Assembly (NCBI RefSeq): GCF_001553645.1
Contig: NZ_CP014231.1
Location: 186,001-250,000 of the forward strand
Reading direction: 5' to 3'
Length of the DNA: 64,000 bases
Source: Leptotrichia sp. oral taxon 847
GTDB taxonomy: Bacteria; Fusobacteriota; Fusobacteriia; Fusobacteriales; Leptotrichiaceae
The position numbers were made by a program, and so were the translations under genes. Shown here one piece after another: positions 12,535 to 63,652 of this stretch. The number at the start of each line of letters is the position of its first letter. The stretch's first letter is position 1. The notes below the pieces were generated by a model. That model was not told where the DNA came from. It ran no database searches and was given only the letters and a program-made list of their open reading frames with translations.

Positions 12535-15500
12535 TTAGTAAATCAATCTAAATCCTAGTCCTCCTCTTACATTTTCTCCCTTAGTGTCGTATCCTAGGTT
12601 GGCTGTTACTCCAAATCTTGTGTTGTCTACTCCTAAGTTCAAATCAAATTTACCGCTTCCTCGTCTGTCTTCCTTTTCACTTCTTATTCCAAACCAGTCC
12701 GCATCTGTATATCTTACTCTTGCTTGATTCTTAACATTGTTTACTTTTCCTAGTTCATCTGTGTACGCTGCTGTCAAGCCTAATGTTAAGTTTGTTCTGA
12801 CTGCCATTGGTTGTACATATTTAAACTCTACTCCTACTTCTGGTTTTACTGAGAAATAGTCATTTCCGTCAACTTCCAATCTAACTTCTCCTCTATCTTC
12901 CTTAATATTGCTAAATCTTCCGTATTCCATCTTTAATGCTCCGTATGGTCTTAAATGTGTTCTTTCACTCAATCGTACGTCATAGCCTAAATCTGTCTTG
13001 AATGCCGCACCATATGATGTATAATCCGCTTTCGCGTTAAAGATGTCGTCTACTACCAAGAATCTACGTTTCATTTCATTTCTTCCTGCAAACACATCTC
13101 CTGCTATTGTCCATCTTAGTGATCCATTGTGATCATTTGCTGGCGACATTGTCTTAAATAGTCCTGCTCTTACCATTGTCTGGTTTTCTCTTGATTTTCC
13201 TATGTCTTTGAATTTAAATCTGTTGTTTACTGCTCCTGCATACCATCCTTGTGAGTTTCCTAATTTTACTGTTTCATCTTCATGTACATAGGCTACACCA
13301 TAAGCATTGCTTGTATAATCTATTATTCCTGCCGTATCTGAATTGTATTCATTTCTCATTCCAAATACTTTTATCTTATTGTTCTGTTTTGATGGATTTC
13401 TCCATTGATCGTGAAGATATGTAAATTCTTTGTCAAGCAAACTTCCTGTTTCGTTGATTCTTTGCTGTACATTTCCATACTGGTGTCCCATCATTTCATC
13501 TGTTGCCTGATAGAATAAGATTTCTTCGTTGTTTCCTATTCCATTTAATTTTTGGAATAACTGTCTTTCTCTTGTTCCTAATTCTTCAACTCCGTATCTT
13601 TGTTCCAATCCATCCAAGAAGTTATATGTATCTGTGCTGTCTACTGGTGTATCTTCTTTTCCTGCCCACGCTGTATATGGTATCTTAGCCATATAGATGC
13701 TTGTCATTGTTCCATCGGCTGGATTCAATGTCGGTGTTGCTATCCAGTTCAATCCTCCAGAGTAGATATTCCAATTTGAAACTCCACTTGTTCTTATCGC
13801 ATTGTTATACGGATCTAATATTTTCGGATCTTTAATCAGGATTGACTTGCTGTTTGTCATTTCTGTTGCTTCTGTTCCAATAATTAAGTCTGCTTCCTGT
13901 GTTAAATTTCCTAATCCATTTATTGAATTTGTATAGTCTTTTCCTGATGTATTTACATACAATCCTACACTTGACGCTGATACTTCAATCGGATTTTTTG
14001 CAAATGTATTTATCACTACCGGATTCTGTTTTACTCCATTTATTGTTACTGTCGCTGTCTGTGCTCCCGCTGGTGCGTCAATTACTGTTCCTCCTACTCC
14101 TTTTCCTGTTGGAGGTGTTGTAAATGTATATACAGTGTCACTTGGATTGCTGCTTCCATTTACTGTTATGTTACCGTAGTTGGCTACTGTTCCTCCCTTT
14201 AAGTACACACCTACTGCATTTGATCCGTCTATTGTGATACTTCCTGTATTGTTAAGTGTTGCTCCTTTTCCTAAATATACACCTACTACATTTGTGTAGC
14301 TTCCTGATCCTGTTGAAATACTACCTGTATTTATTGCAGTTGCTCCGTTATCTGCATAGATACCTGTCGTATTGTTTCCGTTTAGCACGATGTTACTGTT
14401 GTTTGTTGCTGTACTTCCTGCTCCACTTGCATACATACCTATACTGTAGTCACCGTTCACATTGATTGTTCCGTTGTTTATTACGTGTCCTGTATCGCTG
14501 TTCTGGTATCCCGCTGCCATACCTATTCCAAATGCGTTTGTTGCTGCGTTTGAAGCCCCTACTGTGATTGTTCCGGTGTTTGTCGCTGTTCCTCCACCTA
14601 TTGAATAGATTCCAACGTTTCCTACACCGTTTCCAAAGTCCATGTTACCTGAGTTTGTTACTGTTCCTGCTGAGTAGATACCGTAGTTTCCTCCTCCTGC
14701 TGCACTTAAGTTTGTTGAGTTGTTTACTGTTCCTGCTGCATCATTTGAGTAAACATAGATATTGTTTGTTCCTAATCCTACATTTGATACTGTCGAATTA
14801 ATTGTGTTTCCATTTCCAGCATTCGCTATCGCAACCGATGTATCTCCCAAGTTAAATGTTGTACCACTGTTTGTTACTGTTTGACCGCTTCCTACTGTGT
14901 ACACACCTACTGATTCAGACGCTCCTGTTGCAATTGTTCCTCCTGTTAGGTTTACATTTCCACCTTGTGAATATACACCTACACCTTTATCTCCTACTTT
15001 TACTGTTCCTCCTGTTACATCAGCGGCATATCCAAACATACCTATACCGTTATTACCTACTGTAATGTTTCCAGAGTTTGATGTTGTGTAGTTTGTAGCT
15101 GTATTTTCTCCGTATAGACCTACACTGCTGTCTCCTAAAGTAATGTTTCCTGTATTTCCAAGAACTGCTCCCGCTGCAAGCGATGCGTCAGGTTTAAACA
15201 ACACACCTACTGATGATGTTCCTGAACTTGTTATTGTTCCTGCGTTTGTTACACCTTGAGTTGTTGAACCTTCAGAGTACATTCCTGTTGACTTGTTACC
15301 CATTGTGATTGTTCCTGTATTTGTTAGGATACTGTCTCCCACTCCGTAAAGTCCTGTCGATGTATCTCCTAGTGTAATTGTTCCTGTTGCATTGTTGTTA
15401 ATAATTCCATATTTAGCATACATTCCTGTTGAGTTTGCACCACTTAAGTTAATTGCTCCATCATTATTCAATGTAACAGCTGCTCTGTTACCTGTCAAGT

Positions 15501-18348
15501 TTTCTTGTGCAATTGCAGTTTGACCTGCTTGTGTTCCTGTTATGGTATTGCTGTTATTGTTGTCAATTGATGAATTTGAAATTTCCAATTGATTGTATGC
15601 ATCATTAGGGTCATCCAAGTTAATTGACTGATTTAATTTTAGTTTACTCAAGTAAAGCATAAATGTCTTATAGTCAGTTCCGTTTATAGTTGCTCCCAGA
15701 GCGCCAGCTAGACCACTACCTGCTGTATCCGACAAGTTCATTGATACATCAGAAGCGATGAATAATCTTGAACCACTTGCCATATTAAGTGTTAATTTAT
15801 TTATAGTACCACCAAATGTATTATTTGCCCAAGTTGTTATGTCTGAAGCTGTAAATGGAGAATATCCACTACCTTTATAATAGAACGCAGTACCTCTTGT
15901 ATTGGCATCAGTACCTCCTGCTATGTTTGCAGTTGTTGGTCCAGTAAAGTTAATGTGACCTGTGTTATCTGCATAGAATGCTAATGATTTTTGTCCTGTA
16001 TCTATTGCAGTACCGTTTAATTTTACTGTACCGTCTGCTGCAAGTACATTAAATGCTCCTCCCGTAGTTTTTATGGTACCACCTGTGATGTCAACAGTTC
16101 CTCCTTTATATCCATATGCACCAGCTGAAGCACCACCATCAACATTTATAGTTCCTCCACCTGTATGAGTAATAGTACCTCCATCCATTGCTGCAAGCCC
16201 AGTTGAACCATCTGTTGCACTTGAGGCAGTTCCTGTTACATCTACTTGTCCACTATTTGTAATTGTTGTAGACTTATTAGCCACTATCGCTTTAACAGAA
16301 GCTCCTGTTGCTGATATTTTTCCTGTATTTGTAACCGCTCCTGCACTGTTAGCAAAAATACCTGTTGACTTATCAGATGTTATTGTAATATCTGCTGCAG
16401 TTGTCATTGGCGCACCTGTGTATATTCCTATATTTTCACTACCAGATGTTATATTAATAGCATGCTCTGTTCCTGAACCTAGATTAACTTTTCCTTGTTT
16501 CACTAGAACACCTGTATTTTTACTTCCTGTCACATTTATCTTGTATTCATTCAATGTAAATGTGTTTGGTGAAGCACTTTCAAAATATACACCTGTATTT
16601 TTATCTCCTGTTAAATCTAGTCTTATTACAGATGCTCTTGTTGAACCTGGCAATGTCGTTACTATATTATCTGATGTACTGTGACTAAAAGGAGCTCCTC
16701 CATCAAGATCCATCCAACCTTTAAATACAACTCCAGCTGAACTTGTTCCTGAAAGAGTTATCGGCTTATTCAGTAATATTTCTGCCGCATCATAAGAATG
16801 TTTATTGTCAACTATGATTCCATATTGAGTGTCTCCTGTTAAGTTAATGTTACCGTCATTTATATATGACCAACCACTATTTGCAGCAGCAACAGGAGAT
16901 TGAATTACCGCAAGGACATCATTTGTACCACCTATATTAATAGTTCCTCCTGTTTCATTATGAAAATAATGCTGTCTGTCCATTGTTCCACCCTCATCAA
17001 GAGCGATCCAACCTATATTTTTACTTCCTGCTGTTGTTATTGTTCCTTTATTTACAAATCCGATATTTCCATGTGTCGGAGCATTTCCATGATACTGTGA
17101 AGTCCATAAAACTAAGTGATCACCATTCAAACTAATATTTTTATTATTTACCCATGTCGAATCTCCATTATAATTATGACCATCTGTATGGAATAACCAT
17201 CTTTGATAATTTGGATCCCCTGTACCTGTATATTCAATATCAGAATTTACATTTATTGTATGTCCACCAACCAACTTGAGTACTGAAATATAATCAGCAT
17301 TTGTAGCAGTAACATCTAATAAACCGGCACCCACATTACCTTGATTATGATTTAAAGCAGGATTAGTAGGATGAGAATATCTTCCTGTAAACGTAATACC
17401 TTTAGCTGTATAATCAAATTCACTTCCGTGAGCTTTTACTGTTAATTTACCACCATCCATATCTTGTTGTGCAATAGCTCCTACTATCCTAGTCGCACCT
17501 AAAGCGGCAGAACCTACTGAACCACCAGTCCAACCTTTATCCCATTTTACATATGTTGCTCCATTTGCAATCCAAGCATCATCATCATTACCTGTTGATG
17601 GAGCCTGTGGTGCTGGAGGTTCTACATTAGGTATATCTGGTGTATTAATTACAGGCACCGCTGGTTTAAAATTAATAGCCTGTGGCAAGTTAGGTTGTGT
17701 AGCCGTAGGCGCTGTTACTGTTGGTGCTGTAAATACTCTTGGGTTAATTCCCGCATTTACTTCAAAAGCTACAATTGGTTCACGCGCTGGTAGTGTACTT
17801 GCTATACCGTATCCTGATAATCCTTGTCTGTTGTTTGATGATGCTGAACGTGGATTTCTGTCCTTTGATAGCAATGAATAATTTTTGCTGTTAGGTGCAA
17901 TGTATCTTTCATATGGATCTGCACTTCTGTCAAATACTCCTTCATATGGGTATTTTTCTTTCTTATCTCCTCTACCTTTGTAAACTCCATTCCAGTTGTT
18001 GTTGATGTAATTTATTCCGTACTGCCAAGAACTCCAAGGTGATTTAACTACGTGATCTCCCTGTTCCATTAATTGAATTAATTCAAGATTTGTTGTTCTT
18101 AACAATTTGTTGTTTTCTTCTCTTGCTCTTCTAAAATCTTTTTTTATCTGTACTATTGATGTATTTATTGCTTGTTCCTGTGCCTTTATTTCATCTTGTG
18201 CTGAATAAAGATTAAATGATATACCTGTAAAACTTATCATTCCTGTCAACAGAAAAGTGATAAGTGCTGAATCAGTATATTTGAAATCTTTAACTCTTTT
18301 TGCAAAAGACTTCAGTTCTTTTTTTAGAACTTTTAAATTATTAGTCAT
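12535..18348 (-). CDS. Autotransporter adhesin 1 (type Va, modular passenger)
   Basis: A 1937-residue outer-membrane autotransporter. Residues 1-26 are strongly basic, 27-48 hydrophobic (unusually long signal region), 51-95 coiled-coil, and 97-114 the conserved block GDHVVKSPWSSWQYGINY of the fusobacterial autotransporter-associated N-terminal domain. A proline-rich linker (about 200-250) leads to a long beta-helix passenger of roughly 20-residue repeats such as NTGTITMGNKSTGMYSEG. The last ~270 residues form the beta-barrel, ending GLGFRLIY. The N-terminal ~225 residues and last ~968 residues nearly match autotransporter 2; the middle differs. Ribosome-binding site AGAGG. Promoter spacer is a poly-A tract. 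Probable role: adhesion or aggregation. Confidence 0.9.
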   Translation of the reverse strand: MTNNLKVLKKELKSFAKRVKDFKYTDSALITFLLTGMISFTGISFNLYSAQDEIKAQEQAINTSIVQIKKDFRRAREENNKLLRTTNLELIQLMEQGDHVVKSPWSSWQYGINYINNNWNGVYKGRGDKKEKYPYEGVFDRSADPYERYIAPNSKNYSLLSKDRNPRSASSNNRQGLSGYGIASTLPAREPIVAFEVNAGINPRVFTAPTVTAPTATQPNLPQAINFKPAVPVINTPDIPNVEPPAPQAPSTGNDDDAWIANGATYVKWDKGWTGGSVGSAALGATRIVGAIAQQDMDGGKLTVKAHGSEFDYTAKGITFTGRYSHPTNPALNHNQGNVGAGLLDVTATNADYISVLKLVGGHTINVNSDIEYTGTGDPNYQRWLFHTDGHNYNGDSTWVNNKNISLNGDHLVLWTSQYHGNAPTHGNIGFVNKGTITTAGSKNIGWIALDEGGTMDRQHYFHNETGGTINIGGTNDVLAVIQSPVAAANSGWSYINDGNINLTGDTQYGIIVDNKHSYDAAEILLNKPITLSGTSSAGVVFKGWMDLDGGAPFSHSTSDNIVTTLPGSTRASVIRLDLTGDKNTGVYFESASPNTFTLNEYKINVTGSKNTGVLVKQGKVNLGSGTEHAINITSGSENIGIYTGAPMTTAADITITSDKSTGIFANSAGAVTNTGKISATGASVKAIVANKSTTITNSGQVDVTGTASSATDGSTGLAAMDGGTITHTGGGTINVDGGASAGAYGYKGGTVDITGGTIKTTGGAFNVLAADGTVKLNGTAIDTGQKSLAFYADNTGHINFTGPTTANIAGGTDANTRGTAFYYKGSGYSPFTASDITTWANNTFGGTINKLTLNMASGSRLFIASDVSMNLSDTAGSGLAGALGATINGTDYKTFMLYLSKLKLNQSINLDDPNDAYNQLEISNSSIDNNNSNTITGTQAGQTAIAQENLTGNRAAVTLNNDGAINLSGANSTGMYAKYGIINNNATGTITLGDTSTGLYGVGDSILTNTGTITMGNKSTGMYSEGSTTQGVTNAGTITSSGTSSVGVLFKPDASLAAGAVLGNTGNITLGDSSVGLYGENTATNYTTSNSGNITVGNNGIGMFGYAADVTGGTVKVGDKGVGVYSQGGNVNLTGGTIATGASESVGVYTVGSGQTVTNSGTTFNLGDTSVAIANAGNGNTINSTVSNVGLGTNNIYVYSNDAAGTVNNSTNLSAAGGGNYGIYSAGTVTNSGNMDFGNGVGNVGIYSIGGGTATNTGTITVGASNAATNAFGIGMAAGYQNSDTGHVINNGTINVNGDYSIGMYASGAGSTATNNSNIVLNGNNTTGIYADNGATAINTGSISTGSGSYTNVVGVYLGKGATLNNTGSITIDGSNAVGVYLKGGTVANYGNITVNGSSNPSDTVYTFTTPPTGKGVGGTVIDAPAGAQTATVTINGVKQNPVVINTFAKNPIEVSASSVGLYVNTSGKDYTNSINGLGNLTQEADLIIGTEATEMTNSKSILIKDPKILDPYNNAIRTSGVSNWNIYSGGLNWIATPTLNPADGTMTSIYMAKIPYTAWAGKEDTPVDSTDTYNFLDGLEQRYGVEELGTRERQLFQKLNGIGNNEEILFYQATDEMMGHQYGNVQQRINETGSLLDKEFTYLHDQWRNPSKQNNKIKVFGMRNEYNSDTAGIIDYTSNAYGVAYVHEDETVKLGNSQGWYAGAVNNRFKFKDIGKSRENQTMVRAGLFKTMSPANDHNGSLRWTIAGDVFAGRNEMKRRFLVVDDIFNAKADYTSYGAAFKTDLGYDVRLSERTHLRPYGALKMEYGRFSNIKEDRGEVRLEVDGNDYFSVKPEVGVEFKYVQPMAVRTNLTLGLTAAYTDELGKVNNVKNQARVRYTDADWFGIRSEKEDRRGSGKFDLNLGVDNTRFGVTANLGYDTKGENVRGGLGFRLIY

Positions 18349-18397
18349 AAACTTTAACCTCTTTTCTTTATTATTAAAAAAACTAAGAAAGACGGAA

Positions 18398-18416
18398 AAA
18401 CTATCAAGAATAGTTT
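18398..18416 (-). other. Conserved hairpin in the autotransporter 5' leader
   Basis: In the roughly 129-nt leader, the minus strand carries the stem AAACTAT / ATAGTTT with a five-base loop, ending in five T, next to three tandem GAGT units (plus strand 18417-18428). Both are unchanged in the leaders of autotransporters 2 and 3. It could be a weak attenuator or an RNA-stability element; no function is shown. Confidence 0.5.
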
Positions 18417-18483
18417 GAGTGAGTGAGTCTAATAGAAGTCCCGCATTTCAAAAGTTTTTATTTCTACTTTTCAAAGCGTTAAC

Positions 18484-18513
18484 ATTATAACAAAAAAAAA
18501 AAAAAAATGGCAA
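18484..18513 (-). promoter_or_regulatory. Autotransporter 1 promoter with poly-A/T spacer (18 bp)
   Basis: Minus strand -35 TTGCCA (18508-18513) and perfect -10 TATAAT (18484-18489). The 18-bp spacer is 16 consecutive T plus GT. The same promoter before autotransporters 2 and 3 has 13 and 14 T. A homopolymer of this length is prone to slippage and would tune promoter strength through spacer length. The remaining stretch up to 18679 is AT-rich DNA shared by all three genes, with no ORF. Confidence 0.85.
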
Positions 18514-18679
18514 GTTTTTTTTAAAGAAATCACAAAAAATTTAAAAGGGAAATAGAATTTTTTTATTTATTAGCAAAGAAAAAAACAAACGCAAGACCAA
18601 TATTAAAGAGGGGAAAGTAAAAGAGTTTTTTATTTATTTCAGTTGAAAAAATTTTTTTTATTTACTCAATATTTTTAAA

Positions 18680-19010
18680 GCAGGGGTATCATTGCCATAC
18701 CCCTGCACCCCGGCTAGTCTTCGTCATTTTTATGTACTGCCAAAAAACTCGCTTACGGCGGGGCAGTTTTGTCAGCACATAAAAATGCTCCGACGGTTTA
18801 AATTTTACTATTATACAAAAGGTGTCGTGATTTTTTTGGAGTAAAGACGACTGTTTGAGCACGTTTAGTGCGAGTTTCGGCTTTGCTTCAAAAAAATGCT
18901 TAGACGAGCGTGGGGATTATAAGGGGAAATGGCGGTCCTTTCCCCTTATGTAAAAAATAAAAAAATAATATTAAACAAAATAACATTTTGTAATCAAGAA
19001 TGAATTAAAA
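18680..19010. repeat. MITE-like structured repeat, copy A
   Basis: A non-coding element upstream of autotransporter 1. Left-end hairpin GCAGGGGTAT / ATACCCCTGC, then arm 1 (ATTTTTATG ... CATAAAAAT), arm 2 (TTTTTTTGGAGTAAAG ... CTTTGCTTCAAAAAAA), right-end hairpin AAGGGGAAA / TTTCCCCTT, and the right terminal repeat TAACATTTTGTAATCAAG. The left terminal repeat is missing beyond the hairpin. No open reading frame of note runs through it. Confidence 0.85.
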
Positions 19011-40354: not shown

Positions 40355-40496
40355 GTCAAGACCACCCTTCAAAAGGGTGGCTTGCTCTACGGCTATAAGC
40401 CGTCGGGTCTCCTACTTCGCCTAAAGACGATACTTGACCTTCGTTCAAGCTACTGTTGTATTTGACTCGTTGCTACCTCTTAAAGAGGTATCCGTA

Positions 40497-40958: not shown

Positions 40959-40999
40959 ATAAACACCTTCCTTTCATTAATAGTAGCTTGAACAACTCT

Positions 41000-41028
41000 A
41001 TTATAACGGAAGGTGTATTTTGTTGCAA
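41000..41028 (-). promoter_or_regulatory. tnpA promoter
   Basis: Minus strand -35 TTGCAA (41023-41028) and -10 TATAAT (41000-41005), spacer 17 bp, inside the IS left end. Confidence 0.65.
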
Positions 41029-41110
41029 ACTTACGTTTCCGCACCCGCATAGCAGGTGGTTTTATGTTTCGCACGCTTTGCGTACTCAACTGACTAAAGT
41101 CAATAATTAA

Positions 41111-41147
41111 AAAAAATAGTGAAACTTTAAAAGTCCCACTATTTTTT
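41111..41147 (-). terminator. Terminator of autotransporter 2
   Basis: Inverted repeat AAAAAATAGTG / CACTATTTTTT, the same stem as after autotransporter 1, 29 bp beyond the stop codon and 12 bp from the IS200 element, which left it intact. Confidence 0.85.
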
Positions 41148-41175: not shown

Positions 41176-44100
41176 TTAGTAAATCAATCTAAATCCTAGT
41201 CCTCCTCTTACATTTTCTCCCTTAGTGTCGTATCCTAGGTTGGCTGTTACTCCAAATCTTGTGTTGTCTACTCCTAAGTTTAAGTCAAATTTTCCGCTTC
41301 CTCGTCTGTCTTCCTTTTCACTTCTTATTCCAAACCAGTCCGCATCTGTATATCTTACTCTTGCTTGATTCTTAACGTTGTTTACTTTTCCTAGTTCATC
41401 TGTGTACGCCGCTGTCAAGCCTAATGTTAAGTTTGTTCTGACTGCCATTGGTTGTACATATTTAAACTCTACTCCTACTTCTGGTTTTACTGAGAAATAG
41501 TCATTTCCGTCAACTTCCAATCTAACTTCTCCTCTATCTTCCTTGATATTGCTAAATCTTCCGTATTCCATTTTTAATGCTCCGTATGGTCTTAAATGTG
41601 TTCTTTCACTCAATCGCACGTCATAACCTAAATCTGTCTTGAATGCCGCACCATATGATGTATAATCCGCTTTCGCGTTAAAGATGTCGTCTACTACCAA
41701 GAATCTACGTTTCATTTCATTTCTTCCTGCAAACACATCTCCTGCTATTGTCCATCTTAGTGATCCATTGTGATCGTTTGCTGGAGACATTGTCTTAAAT
41801 AGTCCTGCTCTTACCATTGTCTGGTTTTCTCTTGATTTTCCTATGTCTTTGAATTTAAATCTGTTGTTTACTGCTCCTGCATACCATCCTTGTGAGTTTC
41901 CTAATTTTACTGTTTCATCTTCATGTACATAGGCTACACCATAAGCATTGCTTGTATAATCTATTATTCCTGCCGTATCTGAATTGTATTCATTTCTCAT
42001 TCCAAATACTTTTATCTTATTGTTCTGTTTTGATGGATTTCTCCATTGATCGTGAAGATATGTAAATTCTTTGTCAAGCAAACTTCCTGTTTCGTTGATT
42101 CTTTGCTGTACATTTCCATACTGGTGTCCCATCATTTCATCTGTTGCCTGATAGAATAAGATTTCTTCGTTGTTTCCTATTCCATTTAATTTTTGGAATA
42201 ACTGTCTTTCTCTTGTTCCTAATTCTTCAACTCCGTATCTTTGTTCCAATCCATCCAAGAAGTTATATGTATCTGTGCTGTCTACTGGTGTATCTTCTTT
42301 TCCTGCCCACGCTGTATATGGTATCTTAGCCATATAGATGCTTGTCATTGTTCCATCGGCTGGATTCAATGTCGGTGTTGCTATCCAGTTCAATCCTCCA
42401 GAGTAGATATTCCAATTTGAAACTCCACTTGTTCTTATCGCATTGTTATACGGATCTAATATTTTCGGATCTTTAATCAGGATTGACTTGCTGTTTGTCA
42501 TTTCTGTTGCTTCTGTTCCAATAATTAAGTCTGCTTCCTGTGTTAAATTTCCTAATCCATTTATTGAATTTGTATAGTCTTTTCCTGATGTATTTACATA
42601 CAATCCTACACTTGACGCTGATACTTCAATCGGATTTTTTGCAAATGTATTTATCACTACCGGATTCTGTTTTACTCCATTTATTGTTACTGTCGCTGTC
42701 TGTGCTCCCGCTGGTGCGTCAATTACTGTTCCTCCTACTCCTTTTCCTGTTGGAGGTGTTGTAAATGTATATACAGTGTCACTTGGATTGCTGCTTCCAT
42801 TTACTGTTATGTTACCGTAGTTGGCTACTGTTCCTCCCTTTAAGTACACACCTACTGCATTTGATCCGTCTATTGTGATACTTCCTGTATTGTTAAGTGT
42901 TGCTCCTTTTCCTAAATATACACCTACTACATTTGTGTAGCTTCCTGATCCTGTTGAAATACTACCTGTATTTATTGCAGTTGCTCCGTTATCTGCATAG
43001 ATACCTGTCGTATTGTTTCCGTTTAGCACGATGTTACTGTTGTTTGTTGCTGTACTTCCTGCTCCACTTGCATACATACCTATACTGTAGTCACCGTTCA
43101 CATTGATTGTTCCGTTGTTTATTACGTGTCCTGTATCGCTGTTCTGGTATCCCGCTGCCATACCTATTCCAAATGCGTTTGTCGCTGCGTTTGAAGCTCC
43201 TACTGTGATTGTTCCGGTGTTTGTCGCTGTTCCTCCACCTATTGAATAGATTCCAACGTTTCCTACACCGTTTCCAAAGTCCATGTTACCTGAGTTTGTT
43301 ACTGTTCCTGCTGAGTAGATACCGTAGTTTCCTCCTCCTGCTGCACTTAAGTTTGTTGAGTTGTTTACTGTTCCTGCTGCATCATTTGAGTAAACATAGA
43401 TGTTGTTTGTTCCTAATCCTACATTTGATACTGTCGAATTAATTGTGTTTCCACTTCCAGCATTCGCTATTGCAACCGATGTATCTCCCAAGTTAAATGT
43501 TGTACCACTGTTTGTTACTGTTTGACCGCTTCCTACTGTGTACACACCTACTGATTCAGACGCTCCTGTCTGGATTGTTCCTCCTGTTAGGTTTACATTT
43601 CCACCTTGTGAATATACACCTACACCTTTATCTCCTACTTTTACTGTTCCCCCTGTTACATCAGCGGCATATCCGAACATACCTATACCGTTATTACCTA
43701 CTGTAATGTTTCCAGAGTTTGATGTTGTGTAGTTTGTAGCTGTATTTTCTCCGTATAGACCTACACTGCTGTCTCCTAAAGTAATGTTTCCTGTATTTCC
43801 AAGTACTGCTCCTGCTCCAAGTGAAGCATCAGGTTTAAACAACACACCTACTGAAGATGTTCCAGCACTTGTTATAGTTCCTGCGTTTGTTACGCCTTGA
43901 GTTGTTGACCCTTCAGAGTACATACCTGTTGACTTGTTACCCATTGTGATTGTTCCTGTATTTGTAAGGATGCTGTCTCCCACTCCGTAAATTCCTGTTG
44001 ATGTATCTCCTACTGTAATTGTTCCTGTTGCATTGTTATTAATAATTCCATATTTAGCATACATTCCTGTTGAGTTTGCACCTGACAAATTGATAATACC

Positions 44101-46740
44101 GTTATTGTTTATTGTAACTGCAGCTCTGTTTGTTAATAGATTTTCCTGTGCAATTGCAGTCTGTCCTGTTTGTGTACCAGTTATAGTGTTATTGTTATTG
44201 TTATCAATTGATGAATTAGATAATTCAAGCTGATTATATGCATCATTTGTATCATCTAGATTAATAGATTGATTTAGTGTTAACAAGCTATTGTACAACA
44301 TAAACGTTTTATAATCACTTCCAGTAATATTAGCTCCTAAAGCACTAGCTAATGTTGAACCTGTTGTATCAGACAAATTCATACCTACATCTGATGCTAT
44401 AAACAATCTTGAACCTGAATTCATATTAAGTGTTAAATTTGATAATCCACTAAATTTAGTTGTCGCCCACGTTGATATATCCCCAGATGTGAACGAACTA
44501 TGTCCACTTCCTTGATACAGAAAAGCTGTTCCTCTTGTGGCAGGAGTATTTGAACCACCTGATATAGTTGCTGTCATCGATTTAGTTATGTTTATCTTTC
44601 CTCCATTATTATAAAATAATAAAGATTTTGCACCAGTACTTGCAGTTCCTGTACCATTCAAGTCAATCACACCATTTGAATCCACAGCATAGTTTACAGC
44701 TCCATCTGCTGTAGTTGTATTATGTGTTAATACTTCTACCTTACTATTGGTGTCCTTGGCATATATTCCAACTGAATTTTTACCACTTACATTAGCTGTT
44801 ATTGCTCCACTTCCAAGAGTAGTGAATTCACTTCCACCTGTAGCTATAATTCCAGCCGTTCCTCTTCCTGAAGATGAAGTTTTACCTGTTACTGTTATTG
44901 TTCCTGAGTTGGCTGCATGACCTCCTGATGAAACAACTGCTCCTGTAGCACCATCAGAAGTTACTGTTATTGTTCCCATATTCCCAGCTTGTCCTGCTGC
45001 ACTTTTTGCCATCATTCCAATATTTTCTCCAGCTGTTACTGTTATTTTAGCATTACTATCATTTGTAACAGTACCATTTGAAGAATACATACCTATATTT
45101 TCTGTACCAGTACTGGATATATTAATTTCATTTTTATTTGTTAAAGAAGCATTTGCACCTTCCACTCTCAATCCAATAGATTTATTTTTTGAACCTATTA
45201 TATTAATAATTCCTTCATTATCATAATTTTTACTGCTTACTTCTGAATACATTCCAAAGGAATTTTCACCTGAAACATTAATTTCTCCTTTTGAAGCATT
45301 TTTAATTCCTCCTTGCATATCGTGTAAAATGGCGATTCCACCTGATTCATCCCCTTCTATGTTAATAGTTCCATTATTTGTAGCCGATGAATTTGGTTGA
45401 AGTCCAACGTTATCTGTTCCTATTGCAATACCATAACTTTTATTTCCTTTCATTGTTATTAAATTATTATTAATAACAACTGCTGTCCAGTTATTTGTTA
45501 CTTTTAATCCATAACCTAATGACTGGTCACCATTCATTATAATGGTTCCATTATTTTGAAGTGTATAAGTTCCATCCGAATCACCTTCATCTGTGTAAAT
45601 CATTGCTATCTGTTTGGCTCCAGTTCCAATTATCTTTCCTGATGCTCCATTTATTCCTATAGTATCATTAGTTCCTGAATCAGCTGGATCTGTCTGAACT
45701 TCTATTCCACCTGTCTGTTCTGCAATCAAATTAATAGTTCCATTGTTGGTAAACTTTAAAGCTGTTGTAGAACTATATATAGGATCTAGTGTAACAGCTC
45801 TTTTTTTCGTTACATCTACATTCATAACTGAATCAGAAGCAGAATTAAAATCATTAACATTAGAGGTATCTTGAATATATTCTATTATAGCATTTTGCTT
45901 AGCAGTAGATGCATCACTAACTTTATATGAATTTCCACCCACATTAATATTCGTTCCTAATAATGTGTTACCGAGAGAATTAGAATAAGAATCTAAATCA
46001 AAAACTTCTATACTTATCGCCGCAGGTTGTGGATTAGGTGGTGTTATTTCTGGTGGAACAAAATTAATAGCTTCTGGTAAATTAGGCTGTGTAGCCGTAG
46101 GCGCTGTTACTGTTGGTGCTGTAAATACTCTTGGGTTTATTCCTGCATTTACTTCAAAAGCCACAATTGGTTCACGCGCTGGTAGTGTACTTGCTATACC
46201 GTATCCTGATAACCCTTGTCTGTTGTTTGATGATGCTGAACGCGGATTTCTGTCCTTTGATAGCAATGAATAATTTTTGCTGTTAGGTGCAATGTATCTT
46301 TCATATGGATCTGCACTTCTGTCAAATACTCCTTCATATGGATATTTTTCTTTCTTGTCTCCTCTACCTTTGTAAACTCCATTCCAGTTGTTGTTAATAT
46401 AATTTATTCCGTACTGCCAAGAGCTCCAAGGTGATTTAACTACGTGATCCCCCTGTTCCATTAATTGAATTAATTCAAGATTTGTTGTTCTTAACAATTT
46501 GTTGTTTTCTTCTCTTGCTCTTCTAAAATCTTTTTTTATCTGTACTATTGATGTATTTATTGCTTGTTCCTGTGCCTTTATTTCATCCTGTGCTGAATAA
46601 AGATTAAATGATATACCTGTAAAGCTTATCATTCCTGTCAACAGAAAAGTGATAAGTGCTGAATCAGTATATTTAAAATCTTTAACTCTTTTTGCAAAAG
46701 ACTTCAGTTCTTTTTTTAGAACTTTTAAATTATTAGTCAT
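41176..46740 (-). CDS. Autotransporter adhesin 2 (type Va, modular passenger)
   Basis: An 1854-residue autotransporter with the same architecture as the protein at 12535: basic start, long hydrophobic segment (27-48), coiled-coil, GDHVVKSPWSSWQYGINY block, proline-rich linker, beta-helix repeats (NSGNITVGNNGIGMFGYA and similar) and C-terminal barrel ending GLGFRLIY. The last 2.9 kb (41176-44082) aligns to 12535-15441 at a constant offset of 28641, without indels. The first ~225 residues also nearly match. In between the passenger is different (for example TNNGTINIEGDESGGIAIL). Ribosome-binding site AGAGG. Its poly-A promoter spacer is the shortest of the three. Confidence 0.9.
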   Translation of the reverse strand: MTNNLKVLKKELKSFAKRVKDFKYTDSALITFLLTGMISFTGISFNLYSAQDEIKAQEQAINTSIVQIKKDFRRAREENNKLLRTTNLELIQLMEQGDHVVKSPWSSWQYGINYINNNWNGVYKGRGDKKEKYPYEGVFDRSADPYERYIAPNSKNYSLLSKDRNPRSASSNNRQGLSGYGIASTLPAREPIVAFEVNAGINPRVFTAPTVTAPTATQPNLPEAINFVPPEITPPNPQPAAISIEVFDLDSYSNSLGNTLLGTNINVGGNSYKVSDASTAKQNAIIEYIQDTSNVNDFNSASDSVMNVDVTKKRAVTLDPIYSSTTALKFTNNGTINLIAEQTGGIEVQTDPADSGTNDTIGINGASGKIIGTGAKQIAMIYTDEGDSDGTYTLQNNGTIIMNGDQSLGYGLKVTNNWTAVVINNNLITMKGNKSYGIAIGTDNVGLQPNSSATNNGTINIEGDESGGIAILHDMQGGIKNASKGEINVSGENSFGMYSEVSSKNYDNEGIINIIGSKNKSIGLRVEGANASLTNKNEINISSTGTENIGMYSSNGTVTNDSNAKITVTAGENIGMMAKSAAGQAGNMGTITVTSDGATGAVVSSGGHAANSGTITVTGKTSSSGRGTAGIIATGGSEFTTLGSGAITANVSGKNSVGIYAKDTNSKVEVLTHNTTTADGAVNYAVDSNGVIDLNGTGTASTGAKSLLFYNNGGKINITKSMTATISGGSNTPATRGTAFLYQGSGHSSFTSGDISTWATTKFSGLSNLTLNMNSGSRLFIASDVGMNLSDTTGSTLASALGANITGSDYKTFMLYNSLLTLNQSINLDDTNDAYNQLELSNSSIDNNNNNTITGTQTGQTAIAQENLLTNRAAVTINNNGIINLSGANSTGMYAKYGIINNNATGTITVGDTSTGIYGVGDSILTNTGTITMGNKSTGMYSEGSTTQGVTNAGTITSAGTSSVGVLFKPDASLGAGAVLGNTGNITLGDSSVGLYGENTATNYTTSNSGNITVGNNGIGMFGYAADVTGGTVKVGDKGVGVYSQGGNVNLTGGTIQTGASESVGVYTVGSGQTVTNSGTTFNLGDTSVAIANAGSGNTINSTVSNVGLGTNNIYVYSNDAAGTVNNSTNLSAAGGGNYGIYSAGTVTNSGNMDFGNGVGNVGIYSIGGGTATNTGTITVGASNAATNAFGIGMAAGYQNSDTGHVINNGTINVNGDYSIGMYASGAGSTATNNSNIVLNGNNTTGIYADNGATAINTGSISTGSGSYTNVVGVYLGKGATLNNTGSITIDGSNAVGVYLKGGTVANYGNITVNGSSNPSDTVYTFTTPPTGKGVGGTVIDAPAGAQTATVTINGVKQNPVVINTFAKNPIEVSASSVGLYVNTSGKDYTNSINGLGNLTQEADLIIGTEATEMTNSKSILIKDPKILDPYNNAIRTSGVSNWNIYSGGLNWIATPTLNPADGTMTSIYMAKIPYTAWAGKEDTPVDSTDTYNFLDGLEQRYGVEELGTRERQLFQKLNGIGNNEEILFYQATDEMMGHQYGNVQQRINETGSLLDKEFTYLHDQWRNPSKQNNKIKVFGMRNEYNSDTAGIIDYTSNAYGVAYVHEDETVKLGNSQGWYAGAVNNRFKFKDIGKSRENQTMVRAGLFKTMSPANDHNGSLRWTIAGDVFAGRNEMKRRFLVVDDIFNAKADYTSYGAAFKTDLGYDVRLSERTHLRPYGALKMEYGRFSNIKEDRGEVRLEVDGNDYFSVKPEVGVEFKYVQPMAVRTNLTLGLTAAYTDELGKVNNVKNQARVRYTDADWFGIRSEKEDRRGSGKFDLNLGVDNTRFGVTANLGYDTKGENVRGGLGFRLIY

Positions 46741-46875: not shown

Positions 46876-46902
46876 ATTATAACAAAAAAAAAAAAATGGC
46901 AA
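46876..46902 (-). promoter_or_regulatory. Autotransporter 2 promoter with poly-A/T spacer (15 bp)
   Basis: Minus strand -35 TTGCCA (46897-46902) and -10 TATAAT (46876-46881). The spacer is 13 T plus GT, 15 bp in total, two below the sigma70 optimum, so this copy should be weak in the sequenced state. The region 46741-47055 otherwise matches the DNA upstream of autotransporters 1 and 3 and has no gene. Confidence 0.85.
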
Positions 46903-56865: not shown

Positions 56866-59800
56866 TTAGTAAATTAATCTAAATCCTAGTCCTCCTCTTA
56901 CGTTTTCTCCCTTAGTGTCGTATCCTAAGTTTGCTGTTACTCCAAATCTTGTGTTGTCTACTCCTAAGTTCAAGTCAAATTTTCCGCTTCCTCGTCTATC
57001 TTCTTTTTCGTTTTTCAAGTTGTACCAATCCGCTGTTGTATATCTTACTTTGGCTTTGTTTAAATTGTTTACTTTTCCTAATTCATCTGTGTACGCTGCT
57101 GTCAAGCCTAATGTTAAGTTTGTTCTGACTGCCAATGGCTGTACATATTTAAACTCTACTCCTACTTCTGGTTTTACTGAAACATAGTCGTTTCCATCCA
57201 CTTTTAATCTGATTTCTCCATCGTCTTCTTTTATGCTTGTAAATCTTCCATATTCCACTTTTAATGCTCCATATGGTCTAACATGTGTTCTTTCTGATGT
57301 TCTTATATCATATCCTAAATCAGTTTTTAATGCTGCTCCATATGAATAATAGTCAGATTTTGCGTTAAATGTATCGTCAACTACCCAGAATCTACGTTTC
57401 ATTTCATTTCTTCCCGCAAACACATCTCCTGCTATTGTCCATCTTAGTGATCCATTGTGATCATTTGCTGGAGACATTGTCTTAAATAGTCCTGCTTTTA
57501 CCATTGTCTGGTTTTCTCTCGAACCACCTAAATCTTTAAATTTATAGTGATTATTTACTGCACCTGCGTACCATCCTTGACTGTTACCCATTCTCACATC
57601 TTCGTCTTCATGAACATAAGCTACTCCGTAAGCGTTACTTTCGTTGTCGATTACTCCTGCGGTATCTGTATTGTATTCATTTCTCATTCCAAATACTTTT
57701 ATCTTATTGTTCTGTTTTGACGGATTTCTCCACTGATCGTGAAGATAAGTAAATTCTTTGTCCAATAAGCTTCCTGTTTCGTTTATTCTCTGCTGAGTAT
57801 TTGAATACTGGTAACCTTTCATTTCATTTACTGCTTGTGCAAATATATGTGTTTCTCCTTTTCCTATTCCATTTAATTTGTTAAACAGTATTTTTTCTCT
57901 GGCTCCTCTAGCTCCATAATCATCTACACCATATCTTTGTTCCAATCCATCTAAGAAGTTTCTAGTATCTGGATCTTTCTTGCTGGCAAAATCTGTATAT
58001 GGAACTTTTACTAAGTATACTCTATCAATTCCACTTCCAGATAAATTTCTTACCGGCTGTGCAAGCCAAGTCAAGCTTGATGAATTTACATTTAATGTTC
58101 CTGTTACTCCATTTAATGCCTGATTATATGGACTTAATATATTATCTCCCACTTCAATCGCTTTAGCGTTTGAATATTCAGTTGCTTCGACTCCCATAAT
58201 CAAGTTTATATCTGTCAATCCTGATAAATAATGTAGTCCCTGTATTGGATGAGTAAAGTTAATTCCTGATGTATCTACATACATTGCTACACTTGTAATT
58301 TCTCCTGTTTGACTCTTAGTTCTTGAAATAGTTCCTAAGTCAAATGTTTTAAATGGATCATTTAATATTGTGCTGTCCCCTTCTCTTACTTCCACTACTG
58401 TCGCATTTGGTGACGCAGCATTCGTATCAACATTTTCTATTTTAACCGCTTCAAACGTTCCATCTGGTTTTCTTACCATTATTGACTGAGGATTTGCCTT
58501 TGGCGGAGTTTTGATTGTTACGCTTCCTTCTGTTTTTGCATCTGTTGCTGAAGCCAAATACACTGGTTTATCTGAATTATTTGTTCCCGATCCATCTTCA
58601 GCATAAGGTCCAGTGAATACTCCTGTTCCATCTGAGTATACTCCCATTGTGTCTGATCCTGTGATTTCGATATTACCATAGTTTTTAAGAATACCTCCGT
58701 TTGCTAATACCACACCTTTCATTTTTGAGCCTGTTGCGACTGTTTTTATGTTTCCATAGTTTATTCCTGTTGCTCCTTGGTCAATGTACATTCCTATTGT
58801 ATTAGCTCCACTTAAGTTAATTACTCCACTTGCTCCATTTATCGCTTTTGAACCTGCTCCTACTGCATACATTCCTATACTGTTTGGTGTTGTTACGTTG
58901 ATTACTCCATTATTTACTACTGTACCTACATTTGAAACAGTTCCTGTTGTTTCGTCAAAGTATCCTGTTGCCATTCCAATTCCAAATTCTTTTGTAGTTG
59001 TATTTGATGGACCTACGTTAATTGTTCCTGTATTCGTAATTGTTCCACCTGTCGAGTAAAGTCCTATATTTCCTACTCCTGAACCCATATTAATTGTTCC
59101 GTTGTTTACTGCGTCTTGCAATGAATAAATTGCATATCCATTAGTTCCTGTCATATTTACAGTACTATTATTAGTTATCAAGCTTCCTGCCTGAATTGGT
59201 GAAGCTGAGTAAATGTATACTGATTTATCTCCTACACTAGCTGTAGTCCCTGCTCCTGTTGTCAAGCTTACAGGCTGGCTTGTAATCAAGCTATATCCAA
59301 ATGACTGATTATTTCCTACCGCCATATTTACGTTTCCTGTAATGTTTATTGGTGTTGGAGAATTTTTATCATCCTGAACATACACTCCTACCGCATTATT
59401 GTTTCCGACGTTAACTGTTCCGCTGTTTAATGCAACATTTGGACCTGTTGAATAGATTCCTAATCCACTATCTCCAACGTTTATTGCTCCACCGTTCATA
59501 TTTACATTTCTTCCGTAAATACCGTATGAATTTTGTCCCACATTTATTGTTCCTGATGTTGTTATTGGAGTATTTATATCTTGTGTAAACATACCAATTG
59601 ATTCACTTCCAGCTGTTGTTGCTGCAACGTTTATTGTCCCTGTACTTGTATTTTCCATTGTAGAACTGTCTGTAGCATACATACCTGCTGAAACTGGTCC
59701 ATTTACATTAATTGTTCCCGCATTTGTCAATGTTCCTCGTGAAGTTCCCATTGCAATTGAGTTATTTCCACCGTTCATTGTAATTGTTCCGCCAGCCACA

Positions 59801-62800
59801 TTTGTCGCTTTAATGTCACCTGCTCCTCTTTCGTTGTTGTTTCCAATACCCAAGCTGTTGTTGTAGGCATAGATTCCAACTGAGCTGTCTTTGTTCACTG
59901 TGATTTTTCCTGTATTTGTCACATCAACCTTACCATATTGTCCAGCTGCAGCTAAAGTAGGATTATAGTATGCTTCTGTAGTTGGGTCAACTCTTGCTCC
60001 GGCATTGTTTATTCTGTATGAAAGTCCTAAAATACCAAATGATTTTTCTCCACCTACTGTCACTTCTCCAGCATTTACAATTGGAGTACTGTTTGTTCCG
60101 TAAATTCCAACTGCGTGAGGATTGTTATTTGTAGATTCAACTTCTACTTTTCCACTTGCGTTATTATTGATTTTTCCGTAGTTTACGTAAAGTCCTACTC
60201 CACCGTTTCCGTTGTCTGTTCTGTTTACAGTTACATTTCCATCATTATTAATAGCTGTCATATTACTTGCACTCGATTTAGATGAAGCCGCTACTGCAAT
60301 TCCTACTGGAATGTTTGCTCCACCAATTGAAGTAAGGTCCGCTGTATTTAAGTTTGCAGTAACATTTTTTCCTGCCCCCACATTAATTGTAGAATTTTGT
60401 AAAAGTAATCTTCTTGTGAACACATAACCATCTGAAGTAGGTGTATTGTCTCCTTTATTGATGTCAGAGTCAATATTAAATGTAGTTCCATCCATTACCG
60501 CATATTTATATTTATATGAAGCACTTCCAGGTGTTACTTGAGCTCCAGATAAAAATCCTCCTGAACCTGTAAAACTATTGTCCAATCCTGTTGAATTTAG
60601 TGAAGCTACTCCTCTTAAATCCATTAGTATTACATCATCTGATTTAACATCTATCTTAGTATTATTATTAAACTGAACACCATTTGATCCGCTCATATCT
60701 TTTATATATCCAGTTGCTTTTCCACCTAATGTTAATGTACCATCATTTAAAATTATATCACTGGTACCTTCAGTATACAAAGCATACCCTGAACCTGTAT
60801 AATCCACTTCACCATTTGTCAAATCAATTTTACTACTTGATCCTACAGCCGCTACACCAACTCCTGTGTCAGTTGTCTTAATTTTGTTGTAATCAGCTCT
60901 TATATTTGCACCATCTTTTGCAAATAGTCCAAATCCTCCATATACATTAGGATTATTTGCTGCAACTTTTCCTGTTATATCAACATTATATTCACCAGCT
61001 GTTGTATTTCCAAAATTATATCCTGTTTGTCTTACATCTACAACTGCACCATTTTTAGCATAAACTCCACCTACATTTTTATCAAGACTAGTACCATTAT
61101 AAGTAGGATTTGCACTCATATTGGCTTTTACTTTAAGTCCACCAGCTACTGTAGGGGTAGATCCTCCTGTTCTGAAACCTACTCTTACATTTGCACTATT
61201 ATCGGCAAAAATGAAAACATTGTCCTGTGTATCAGTCCCTGTTTCAATACTTTTAACCATTACGTCATAAGTATTACTACCGTGTCCTTCAGCATAGATA
61301 GCAATGTTCTCTTTCCCACCATTTAATACCATTTCACTTGCAGAATATACTTGACCAGAAGCTGGATTTGTACCAGGAGCATTATGTTTTACAACAATAC
61401 CAGTATTGTTGTTTCCACCTGTAAGTTCAATAGAACCTTTTCCTAAAAAGTAAACAGGAGAGTTAGTAGCTTCAGAAGTTTTTACAGGATATACACCAAC
61501 ATTATTTGAACCTTCTACCTTTATATAATGTCCTTGTAAATCAATATTAGAAGCTGAATAAATTCCCGCTGAACCATCTTCAGCTTTACTTGCATTAGTT
61601 TTTATATCTACTGCAAATTGTCCATTTATAAAAGTCTTTGCAGTAAGATCATTTGTACCAGGTGCAGTCTCAGTACTAGTATCGTATTTTGTATATAGTC
61701 CTACACTTTTTTTACCACTAATAACTAAAGGAAAGGAATTATTTTTAGCAGTTAATTTATCAACAATTCCATTACCATCTAGTTTATTTATATAAAGACC
61801 GTTATTTGCACTTGTTGGCATATCATCAGACTTATATCCAGTACTACTAAGTAGGACTTGACCTACTGTATCACTATTTGCTTTACTGAAATTAAGGTGT
61901 AAATTAACAGCTGTGTTACCATCCGTATGCCCATTCTCATGATAACCAACACTTTTATCAATTATTATTCCTGCAGTTCCCTCATTATTTAAATTCATAT
62001 GACCTTTATTAATAATTGCTATATTTCTTTTTGTTTCGGGAAGAAACGAAAATATAGACGAATTTTTTGAATTAACATTTATATCTCCTGTATTGTAATA
62101 ATATTGTATAGGTTCATTTGTATTACGTGTATTAGCTGTAATTAAAAATACGGCACGGTTTTCATCTGTTCCATTTAGATTTACTGTTCCACCATTTATA
62201 ACAACACCATTTCCACCACCATGATTATAACTGTTTACAAGCATAGCTTTTGGTCCTGCTATGTTTATTGTTCCTCCATTAGCAAATACATTATATTGAT
62301 TTGGTTGAGATTTTGAAGTTTCATAAACAACTGTATTAACAATATCATTAATAACATTTGAATCAAGATTAGTTACTCCTGCTGCAGTTGCTGTATTTAT
62401 TGCAGTAATTACATCAGCACTTGGCGAACCACCATGAACATCTTGGTGAACAAGTTCATTTAAATTTGAATGACCAGAAATAACTTTATAATCTATATCC
62501 GAACCATTTATTGTTATACCATAAGGAGCATGTTCTCCTCCTCTTACCTGAAAAAAAGCATTACTTGCACTAGCACTAGAATTTGAATGAGAAGGAATCA
62601 ATACTCCATAAGCGAAACCACTTATTGATGAAGTTGCTGCTGTTCCTCTAATATTCTCAACTGTTACATTATTAGCTTTATAGTCATATGAGCCAGTACC
62701 TTTTCTATCAATTGTTATTTTCCCACCTTTTAAAGCTACATTTTCTACTACAGCTTCACTATTATCATTAAAAGCGTTAGTATGCTGTCCACTACCTCTT

Positions 62801-63489
62801 GAAGGACCTGAAACACTTACACTAATATTCAATTTAGGTTCTGGAGCTTTCACTGTAGGAATAACAGGTGGCACAACAGTAGTAGGCTCAAAAGCCGGCA
62901 AATTACTTAAATCCACATTAAGTGCCAAATTAGCATTCTTAGCCAACGGTTGAATGGGTTTTAATGCCGCTGCTATTGGTATTGCCGCATTAGGCTCAAT
63001 TGGGAATGTTATATCAGTCGAACCACCATAACTTAGCTGTCCTCTTCTTTGGTATTGATATTTATCCATTCCTGTGCTTCTTGTATATTTAACGTCTTTT
63101 ACTTTATCTCCACGTCCTTTATATTCACCATTCCAGTTGTTATTAACATAATTCATTCCATATTGCCAAGAGCTCCAAGGTGATTTAACTACGTGATCTC
63201 CCTGTTCCATTAATTGAATTAATTCAAGATTTGTTGTTCTTAACAATTTGTTGTTTTCTTCTCTTGCTCTTCTAAAATCTTTTTTTATCTGTACTATTGA
63301 TGTATTTATCGCTTGTTCCTGTGCTTTTATTTCATCTTGTGCTGAATAAAGATTAAATGATATACCTGTAAAGCTTATCATTCCTGTCAACAGAAAAGTG
63401 ATAAGTGCTGAATCAGTATATTTAAAATCTTTAACTCTTTTTGCAAAAGACTTCAGTTCTTTTTTTAGAACTTTTAAATTATTAGTCAT
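56866..63489 (-). CDS. Autotransporter adhesin 3 (type Va, modular passenger)
   Basis: A 2207-residue autotransporter. Its first ~120 residues match those at 12535 and 41176 (basic start, hydrophobic 27-48, coiled-coil, GDHVVKSPWSSWQYG block), after which it diverges: RGQLSYGGSTDITFPIEPN and a proline-rich linker (FEPTTVVPPVIPTVKAPEPK), then a long beta-helix passenger with repeats like NTGTINVGPSNTTTKEFGIG. The C-terminal ~330 residues (from NETGSLLDKEFTYLHDQW) again resemble the others, ending GLGFRLIY, with scattered differences. It is the longest passenger of the three. Same promoter type; its terminator is disrupted. Confidence 0.9.
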   Translation of the reverse strand: MTNNLKVLKKELKSFAKRVKDFKYTDSALITFLLTGMISFTGISFNLYSAQDEIKAQEQAINTSIVQIKKDFRRAREENNKLLRTTNLELIQLMEQGDHVVKSPWSSWQYGMNYVNNNWNGEYKGRGDKVKDVKYTRSTGMDKYQYQRRGQLSYGGSTDITFPIEPNAAIPIAAALKPIQPLAKNANLALNVDLSNLPAFEPTTVVPPVIPTVKAPEPKLNISVSVSGPSRGSGQHTNAFNDNSEAVVENVALKGGKITIDRKGTGSYDYKANNVTVENIRGTAATSSISGFAYGVLIPSHSNSSASASNAFFQVRGGEHAPYGITINGSDIDYKVISGHSNLNELVHQDVHGGSPSADVITAINTATAAGVTNLDSNVINDIVNTVVYETSKSQPNQYNVFANGGTINIAGPKAMLVNSYNHGGGNGVVINGGTVNLNGTDENRAVFLITANTRNTNEPIQYYYNTGDINVNSKNSSIFSFLPETKRNIAIINKGHMNLNNEGTAGIIIDKSVGYHENGHTDGNTAVNLHLNFSKANSDTVGQVLLSSTGYKSDDMPTSANNGLYINKLDGNGIVDKLTAKNNSFPLVISGKKSVGLYTKYDTSTETAPGTNDLTAKTFINGQFAVDIKTNASKAEDGSAGIYSASNIDLQGHYIKVEGSNNVGVYPVKTSEATNSPVYFLGKGSIELTGGNNNTGIVVKHNAPGTNPASGQVYSASEMVLNGGKENIAIYAEGHGSNTYDVMVKSIETGTDTQDNVFIFADNSANVRVGFRTGGSTPTVAGGLKVKANMSANPTYNGTSLDKNVGGVYAKNGAVVDVRQTGYNFGNTTAGEYNVDITGKVAANNPNVYGGFGLFAKDGANIRADYNKIKTTDTGVGVAAVGSSSKIDLTNGEVDYTGSGYALYTEGTSDIILNDGTLTLGGKATGYIKDMSGSNGVQFNNNTKIDVKSDDVILMDLRGVASLNSTGLDNSFTGSGGFLSGAQVTPGSASYKYKYAVMDGTTFNIDSDINKGDNTPTSDGYVFTRRLLLQNSTINVGAGKNVTANLNTADLTSIGGANIPVGIAVAASSKSSASNMTAINNDGNVTVNRTDNGNGGVGLYVNYGKINNNASGKVEVESTNNNPHAVGIYGTNSTPIVNAGEVTVGGEKSFGILGLSYRINNAGARVDPTTEAYYNPTLAAAGQYGKVDVTNTGKITVNKDSSVGIYAYNNSLGIGNNNERGAGDIKATNVAGGTITMNGGNNSIAMGTSRGTLTNAGTINVNGPVSAGMYATDSSTMENTSTGTINVAATTAGSESIGMFTQDINTPITTSGTINVGQNSYGIYGRNVNMNGGAINVGDSGLGIYSTGPNVALNSGTVNVGNNNAVGVYVQDDKNSPTPINITGNVNMAVGNNQSFGYSLITSQPVSLTTGAGTTASVGDKSVYIYSASPIQAGSLITNNSTVNMTGTNGYAIYSLQDAVNNGTINMGSGVGNIGLYSTGGTITNTGTINVGPSNTTTKEFGIGMATGYFDETTGTVSNVGTVVNNGVINVTTPNSIGMYAVGAGSKAINGASGVINLSGANTIGMYIDQGATGINYGNIKTVATGSKMKGVVLANGGILKNYGNIEITGSDTMGVYSDGTGVFTGPYAEDGSGTNNSDKPVYLASATDAKTEGSVTIKTPPKANPQSIMVRKPDGTFEAVKIENVDTNAASPNATVVEVREGDSTILNDPFKTFDLGTISRTKSQTGEITSVAMYVDTSGINFTHPIQGLHYLSGLTDINLIMGVEATEYSNAKAIEVGDNILSPYNQALNGVTGTLNVNSSSLTWLAQPVRNLSGSGIDRVYLVKVPYTDFASKKDPDTRNFLDGLEQRYGVDDYGARGAREKILFNKLNGIGKGETHIFAQAVNEMKGYQYSNTQQRINETGSLLDKEFTYLHDQWRNPSKQNNKIKVFGMRNEYNTDTAGVIDNESNAYGVAYVHEDEDVRMGNSQGWYAGAVNNHYKFKDLGGSRENQTMVKAGLFKTMSPANDHNGSLRWTIAGDVFAGRNEMKRRFWVVDDTFNAKSDYYSYGAALKTDLGYDIRTSERTHVRPYGALKVEYGRFTSIKEDDGEIRLKVDGNDYVSVKPEVGVEFKYVQPLAVRTNLTLGLTAAYTDELGKVNNLNKAKVRYTTADWYNLKNEKEDRRGSGKFDLNLGVDNTRFGVTANLGYDTKGENVRGGLGFRLIY

Positions 63490-63624: not shown

Positions 63625-63652
63625 ATTATAACAAAAAAAAAAAAAATGGCAA
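63625..63652 (-). promoter_or_regulatory. Autotransporter 3 promoter with poly-A/T spacer (16 bp)
   Basis: Minus strand -35 TTGCCA (63647-63652) and -10 TATAAT (63625-63630). The spacer is 14 T plus GT, 16 bp, near optimal. The leader 63490-63618 is as in the other two copies, and 63653-63806 is shared AT-rich DNA without genes. Confidence 0.85.

Follow-up and report, generated by a model that had tools for sequence, protein, structure and literature searches.

A 64,000-nucleotide window of the Leptotrichia sp. oral taxon 847 genome (bases 186001-250000 of the single-contig 2.19-Mb assembly, NZ_CP014231.1) carries three large autotransporter genes, here named AT1, AT2 and AT3, whose promoters contain an uninterrupted run of T between the -35 and -10 elements. 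The same arrangement occurs at nine genes of the autotransporter family NF033175 across the genome, and near-identical copies differ in the length of the run. The poly-T spacer is a real, selected feature, and its best explanation is probably phase variation of many adhesins, in which slipped-strand mispairing within the promoter spacer would alter the expression of each gene. Autotransporter adhesins, including relatives of RadD and Fap2, are central to fusobacterial bridging of oral biofilms and to host-tissue binding, and their phase variation has so far only been suggested.

Three autotransporter promoters share a poly-T spacer

A preliminary description of this DNA had assigned AT1, AT2 and AT3 a common promoter, TTGCCA-Tn-GT-TATAAT, and the sequence, tract lengths, coordinates and spacers that it gave proved exact on re-reading (Table 1). 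Each promoter lies upstream of its gene, 135-165 bp from the ATG, and a consensus scan recovered that of AT1 at 18513-18484 with 11 of 12 consensus matches and an 18 bp spacer. The pattern T10-GTTATAAT has three matches in the window, compared with 0.04 expected from shuffling. The flanks, described earlier as near-identical, are indeed ~98% identical among the three promoters across ~370 bp, which indicates that these promoters are recent duplicates and represent one event that was copied, not three independent events.

The three proteins score 162-163 bits against NF033175 (curated cut-off 55) and 88-92 bits against PF03797 (cut-off 26), and therefore belong to the fusobacterial type Va autotransporter family NF033175. 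The RadD equivalog NF049908 was rejected for all of them, as scores of 243-461 bits fall far below the more than 3500 required. The AT1 and AT2 proteins are 100% identical over their first 200 aa and about 97-100% identical over their last 1000 aa, with a middle section that is mostly 26-55% identical. From these alignments, the mosaic pattern suggests that passenger domains may have been recombined between common ends. An IS200/IS605-type transposase region, with 75-80% identity to plasmid elements of Enterococcus, Streptococcus and Ligilactobacillus, adjoins the AT2 gene.

Table 1. Features of the poly-T promoters and their genes. Coordinates are positions in the window; labels ending in k denote family genes in the genome.
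Feature	Position	Strand	Description
AT1 promoter	18484..18513	minus	TTGCCA-T16-GT-TATAAT; -35 18508-18513, tract 18492-18507, -10 18484-18489; spacer 18 bp
AT2 promoter	46876..46902	minus	TTGCCA-T13-GT-TATAAT; tract 46884-46896; spacer 15 bp
AT3 promoter	63625..63652	minus	TTGCCA-T14-GT-TATAAT; tract 63633-63646; spacer 16 bp
AT1 gene	12535..18348	minus	1937-aa type Va autotransporter; NF033175 N-terminus, PF03797 barrel
AT2 gene	41176..46740	minus	1854-aa autotransporter; NF033175 and PF03797
AT3 gene	56866..63489	minus	2207-aa autotransporter; NF033175 and PF03797
AT1 predicted 5' UTR	18349..18477	minus	~130 nt, start predicted from the -10; CACTCACTCA at 18416-18425
AATAAATAAAAA element	18558..18571	minus	~45 bp upstream of the AT1 -35; kept in all aligned promoters
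CACTCACTCA copies	18416-18425, 46808-46817, 63557-63566		decamer
IS200/IS605-type region	40361-41117		transposase
GTCAGCACATAAAAATGCTCCGACGG copies	18771-18796, 40121-40146, 47158-47183, 55183-55208, 63915-63940		dispersed repeat (GTCAGCACATAAAAATGCTCCGACGG plus flanks)
Pure-tract genes	204k, 232k, 249k, 331k, 486k, 1425k, 1451k, 1714k, 2084k		T16, T13, T14, T17, T16, T15, T17, T16 and T18, respectively
Tenth family gene	297k		interrupted tract, T9CT7
Eleventh family gene	410k (L097)		T8A5, no CTTG, no pure tract; downstream of a valS-like gene

Long T runs in the genome are concentrated in autotransporter promoters

The preliminary description had covered three autotransporters; all three are real, but the system is larger, with nine pure-tract genes and one with an interrupted tract among the 11 NF033175 autotransporter genes of the genome. 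A genome search found PF03797 and NF033175 at the tract genes outside the window as well. Runs of T or A of at least 13 number 12 in the genome (13 runs of at least 12), and nine of these 12 form the -35/-10 spacer of an NF033175 autotransporter. With T and A pooled, a first-order model derived from the window sequence predicts ~31 runs of at least 13 per genome, so that long runs are otherwise avoided. With random placement of the 12 runs on both strands, the chance that at least four would fall in the 40-bp promoter windows of the 11 genes is ~1e-13 by our own arithmetic, in which each promoter group is counted as one event. A pattern scan of the genome for at least eight T between TTG and TANAAT returned 24 other sites, all of which are T8 or T9, with none at T10-T12.

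Four promoter groups, diverged in their flanks, can be distinguished: TTGCCA-Tn-GT-TATAAT, TTGC-Tn-GT-TACAAT, TTG(C)-Tn-G(TG)C-TAAAAT and TTG-Tn-GG-TATAAT. Alignment showed that CTTG, the T run, TANAAT and the sequence AATAAATAAAAA ~45 bp upstream are common to all of the aligned groups, and the diverged groups elsewhere in the genome provide independent support beyond the three duplicated promoters of the window. When TTGNNN is taken as the -35, the spacers of the nine pure-tract promoters measure 15 bp (one), 16 bp (five) and 18 bp (three), and none measures 17 bp. Sigma-70 promoters are sensitive to the distance between the -35 and -10 elements, with an optimum near 17 bp.

The 410k gene is the sole intact member without a pure tract, and is possibly constitutively or conventionally regulated. 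Three other family genes (297k, 1425k and 2084k; L096, L100 and L103) are split by a frameshift, which lies near an A6 or G6 run in two of them; the breaks may reflect true pseudogenes, switching through coding repeats or errors of assembly. Spacer promoters were also considered for the four T/A runs of at least 12 that do not belong to autotransporters, and were rejected because these runs become A-tracts when read in the direction of the adjacent genes considered relevant; an Rfam search near them identified only tRNAs.

Pure tracts differ in length between near-identical copies

Copies were compared across a region of ~630 bp that contains the start codon. AT1 and AT2 differ by only five substitutions and two other indels in 632 bp, yet carry T16 and T13, while AT2 and AT3 differ by 20 substitutions and no other indel, yet carry T13 and T14. 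The lengths are T16 and T18 at 486k and 2084k, and T15, T17 and T16 at 1425k, 1451k and 1714k. Indels outside the tract amount to 0-2 per ~630 bp in these in-genome pairs, and a copy pair in the related genome G006 has T19 and T18 with one indel outside the tract in 319 bp. Every near-identical pure-tract pair that was compared, in this genome and in G006, is thus unequal in tract length.

This genome, G006 and G009 represent three species, and all carry exactly the same interrupted tract, T9CT7, despite upstream 350 bp regions that are only 84-93% identical. At 17 bases in total, this tract matches the pure T17 of 331k, its closest paralogue, and thus has the appearance of a T17 that was locked when one T became C. 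Pure copies that vary alongside an interrupted tract that stays constant are the pattern predicted by slipped-strand mutation, and this favours a hypermutable, selected spacer.

Poly-T spacers recur in other Fusobacteriales

Among 140 NF033175 upstream regions from 16 genomes, pure tracts of at least 13 T were found at nine in this genome, two in G006, one in G010 and two in G014, which belongs to a different genus; the remainder are T-rich yet short or interrupted. A search for TTG-T13+-TANANT across 96 genomes of the order gave about 50 matches, compared with two for a reversed control. Many of the matches in Leptotrichiaceae lie upstream of autotransporter-like N-termini or YadA-head proteins, and others precede OmpA-like lipoprotein, polysaccharide exporter or solute-binding proteins. 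Similar promoters also precede autotransporters in other Fusobacteriaceae and Leptotrichiaceae genomes. The one Fusobacterium vincentii record searched had no match to the poly-T promoter pattern, so the best-studied F. nucleatum complex may be without such spacers. Viral, phage and plasmid collections contained no same-species copies. A 2.1-Mb F. vincentii record, NZ_CP084075.1 (L446), is filed in PLSDB as plasmid pSB055A; it is chromosome-sized, has seven NF033175-like places and is probably a mislabelled chromosome.

A model for combinatorial adhesin expression

The preliminary description had considered a phase-variation system likely. The placement of the tracts, the length differences between paralogues, the constancy of the interrupted tract, the 15-18 bp spacers and the recurrence in other genera strongly favour this reading of the sequences. 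The T run would act as a hypermutable spacer between the -35 (TTGCCA, TTGCTT or TTGTTT) and -10 (TATAAT, TACAAT or TAAAAT) elements of sigma-70-type promoters, which are predicted to drive a family of large type Va autotransporter adhesins. Slipped-strand mispairing at replication would add or remove T residues, one or a few per event, and so change both the spacer length (15-18 bp here) and the helical phasing of the hexamers. The changed spacing would in turn alter transcription of that single gene, at random between cells, and nine promoters mutating independently could give a clonal population many combinations of adhesin levels. We infer the rate of slippage, its effect on transcription and its benefit, which would be bet-hedging in adhesion or immune exposure.

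We would give roughly even odds to a wider version of this model, a combinatorial contingency system that recurs in Fusobacteriales. Genes of type Va and YadA-like families would each have an independently slipping poly-T spacer. Such spacers would have arisen repeatedly in Fusobacteriaceae and Leptotrichiaceae, with occasional locking by a single T-to-C change, as in T9CT7, and adhesin combinations would be set per cell in oral and gut biofilms.

The arrangement shares features with the switches of porA, opc and vlp: at nine genes the repeat is bounded by a -35 and a -10 element that can both be recognised, its length is unequal between near-identical paralogous copies in this genome and in G006, and the downstream products, which carry PF03797 and NF033175, are surface-exposed. 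In Neisseria meningitidis, spacer-located repeats switch the surface genes porA and opc (van der Ende 1995 and Sarkari 1994, as cited in PMC5084427). There too, a surface-protein gene has its core spacer filled by a homopolymer, which alters the -35/-10 distance, but single genes are involved, whereas the T tracts described here are on nine paralogous autotransporters. Switching is proven for porA and opc and predicted for the present tracts. The porA and opc tracts consist of G/C bases. In design, the system most resembles the vlp family of Mycoplasma hyorhinis, a multigene surface family with an A/T homopolymer in each promoter and combinatorial on/off expression (Citti and Wise 1995, as described in PMC10502178). 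The vlp genes have poly-A tracts and encode lipoproteins of a wall-less bacterium, in contrast to the poly-T tracts and type Va autotransporters of an outer-membrane bacterium, and there is no homology between the two.

Phase variation has been suggested for F. nucleatum autotransporters (Desvaux 2005, as cited in PMC6346709), a proposal that concerns the same class of protein and the genus of F. nucleatum; poly-T promoter spacers are not mentioned where that proposal is cited. For the trimeric autotransporters of F. nucleatum, phase variation has not been demonstrated (PMC6346709). A search confined to open-access papers returned no account of such spacers in Fusobacteriales. The mechanism is of a known kind (porA, opc, vlp), but within that literature its deployment throughout a family of fusobacterial adhesins appears to be undescribed. 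Nine adhesin promoters with countable T tracts make the model directly testable by read counting, and the T9CT7 orthologues offer a natural locked control. If the model is correct, a clonal culture would contain cells of differing adhesin phenotype, with consequences for the reproducibility of adhesion assays and for deciding which surface antigens to target with vaccines or drugs.

Alternative explanations

Several observations count against variation by slippage. Five adhesin-type promoters in G049, a genome of the second GTDB family of the order (which we infer to be Leptotrichiaceae), are all T14. A housekeeping exception, the promoter TTGACA-T13-NTAT-TATATT of a gene that we take to be hrcA from its protein sequence, keeps T13 in three species of another family (L377-L379). 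Long T spacers are thus not always variable, or short-read consensus hides variation. The 410k gene and most NF033175 genes of sister species lack a pure tract. Homopolymer lengths in the assembly may be off by one or two bases, and the assembly includes the three frame-broken family members. Finally, mutS is intact, so no mutator state is implied, and a mutator background was rejected as the source of the length differences.

The most probable alternative is a variant of the slippage explanation, with which its probability overlaps. Tract length would tune expression gradually, through the helical phase between the -35/-10 elements and the upstream AATAAATAAAAA, in the manner of sabA in Helicobacter pylori, where a T-tract near an adhesin promoter differs in length between strains and tunes output (PMC4081817). 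The conservation of an A/T element ~45 bp upstream is consistent with such a rheostat, as is the multiphasic output of sabA over the same range of tract lengths (PMC4081817). The two T-tracts are similar in length and both accompany adhesin promoters, but sabA is a single gene with its tract upstream of the -35, whereas nine genes here have the tract within the core spacer, where spacing itself should matter more. Membership of the sabA type, which is defined by a tract upstream of the -35, was accordingly rejected, and we regard gradual tuning as a tentative possibility that is somewhat more likely to be wrong than right.

It is unlikely that the T tract is a static structural element, that is, a rigid, unbent oligo-dT spacer that aids polymerase binding and whose length drifts within the tolerance of the polymerase, hardly affecting expression and serving no adaptive switching. 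Such an element would fit the T-rich interrupted spacers in many relatives' autotransporter promoters, the restriction of spacers to 15-18 bp and the constant tracts of the five G049 copies and of hrcA. However, pure T13-18 is confined to adhesin genes in this genome, where other T-run spacers are T8-T9, and tract length differs in every close in-genome pair. T9CT7 would also serve equally well for structure, yet purity is kept in nine of the 10 tract promoters.

Sequencing or assembly errors at homopolymers in an AT-rich genome could in principle account for the tract lengths, and perhaps for the coding frameshifts in three members. Long homopolymers are difficult to sequence, and two of the three frame-broken genes have their break near an A6 or G6 run, but errors cannot account for the presence and position of tracts in other genomes and in diverged paralogues, differences of 2-3 bases exceed typical error and T9CT7 is identical in three independent assemblies, which makes this explanation very improbable. 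Least probable of all is that the tract binds a regulator acting jointly on every member of the adhesin family: the common tract and conserved flanking elements of all promoter groups would suit this, but the length is variable at a position where a protein-binding site should be constant, any change in length unavoidably shifts the -35/-10 distance, and we know of no factor that binds the poly-T tract.

Untranslated regions and upstream elements

The predicted 5' untranslated regions (UTRs) of the autotransporters are about 130-160 nt, compared with a median of 39 nt in fusobacteria, whose promoters have a pronounced -10 and a weaker -35 (PMC11005410). The fold of the AT1 5' UTR is no more stable than those of shuffled sequences (z = 0.21). 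The decamer CACTCACTCA occurs at nine places in the genome when overlapping matches are merged, eight of which are within 5' UTRs of NF033175 autotransporters, and a near variant is present in the 5' UTRs of 297k and 331k. This distribution makes the decamer a possible small RNA target or translation-control site, and the conserved AATAAATAAAAA is a possible UP-like element.

In five sister species (L392-L395 and L397), a gene for a small lipoprotein has an A-tract of 15-23, differing in length between species, immediately before its apparent -35, and the A12 tract at G000:C1:1952166 may be the counterpart. Judged by its position, the lipoprotein A-tract is a second, UP-element-like candidate for length-dependent expression. 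The dispersed repeat GTCAGCACATAAAAATGCTCCGACGG, which has five copies in the window, resembles repetitive extragenic palindromic sequences or miniature inverted-repeat transposable elements and was found at many of the other genome places examined, some of them upstream of several autotransporters.
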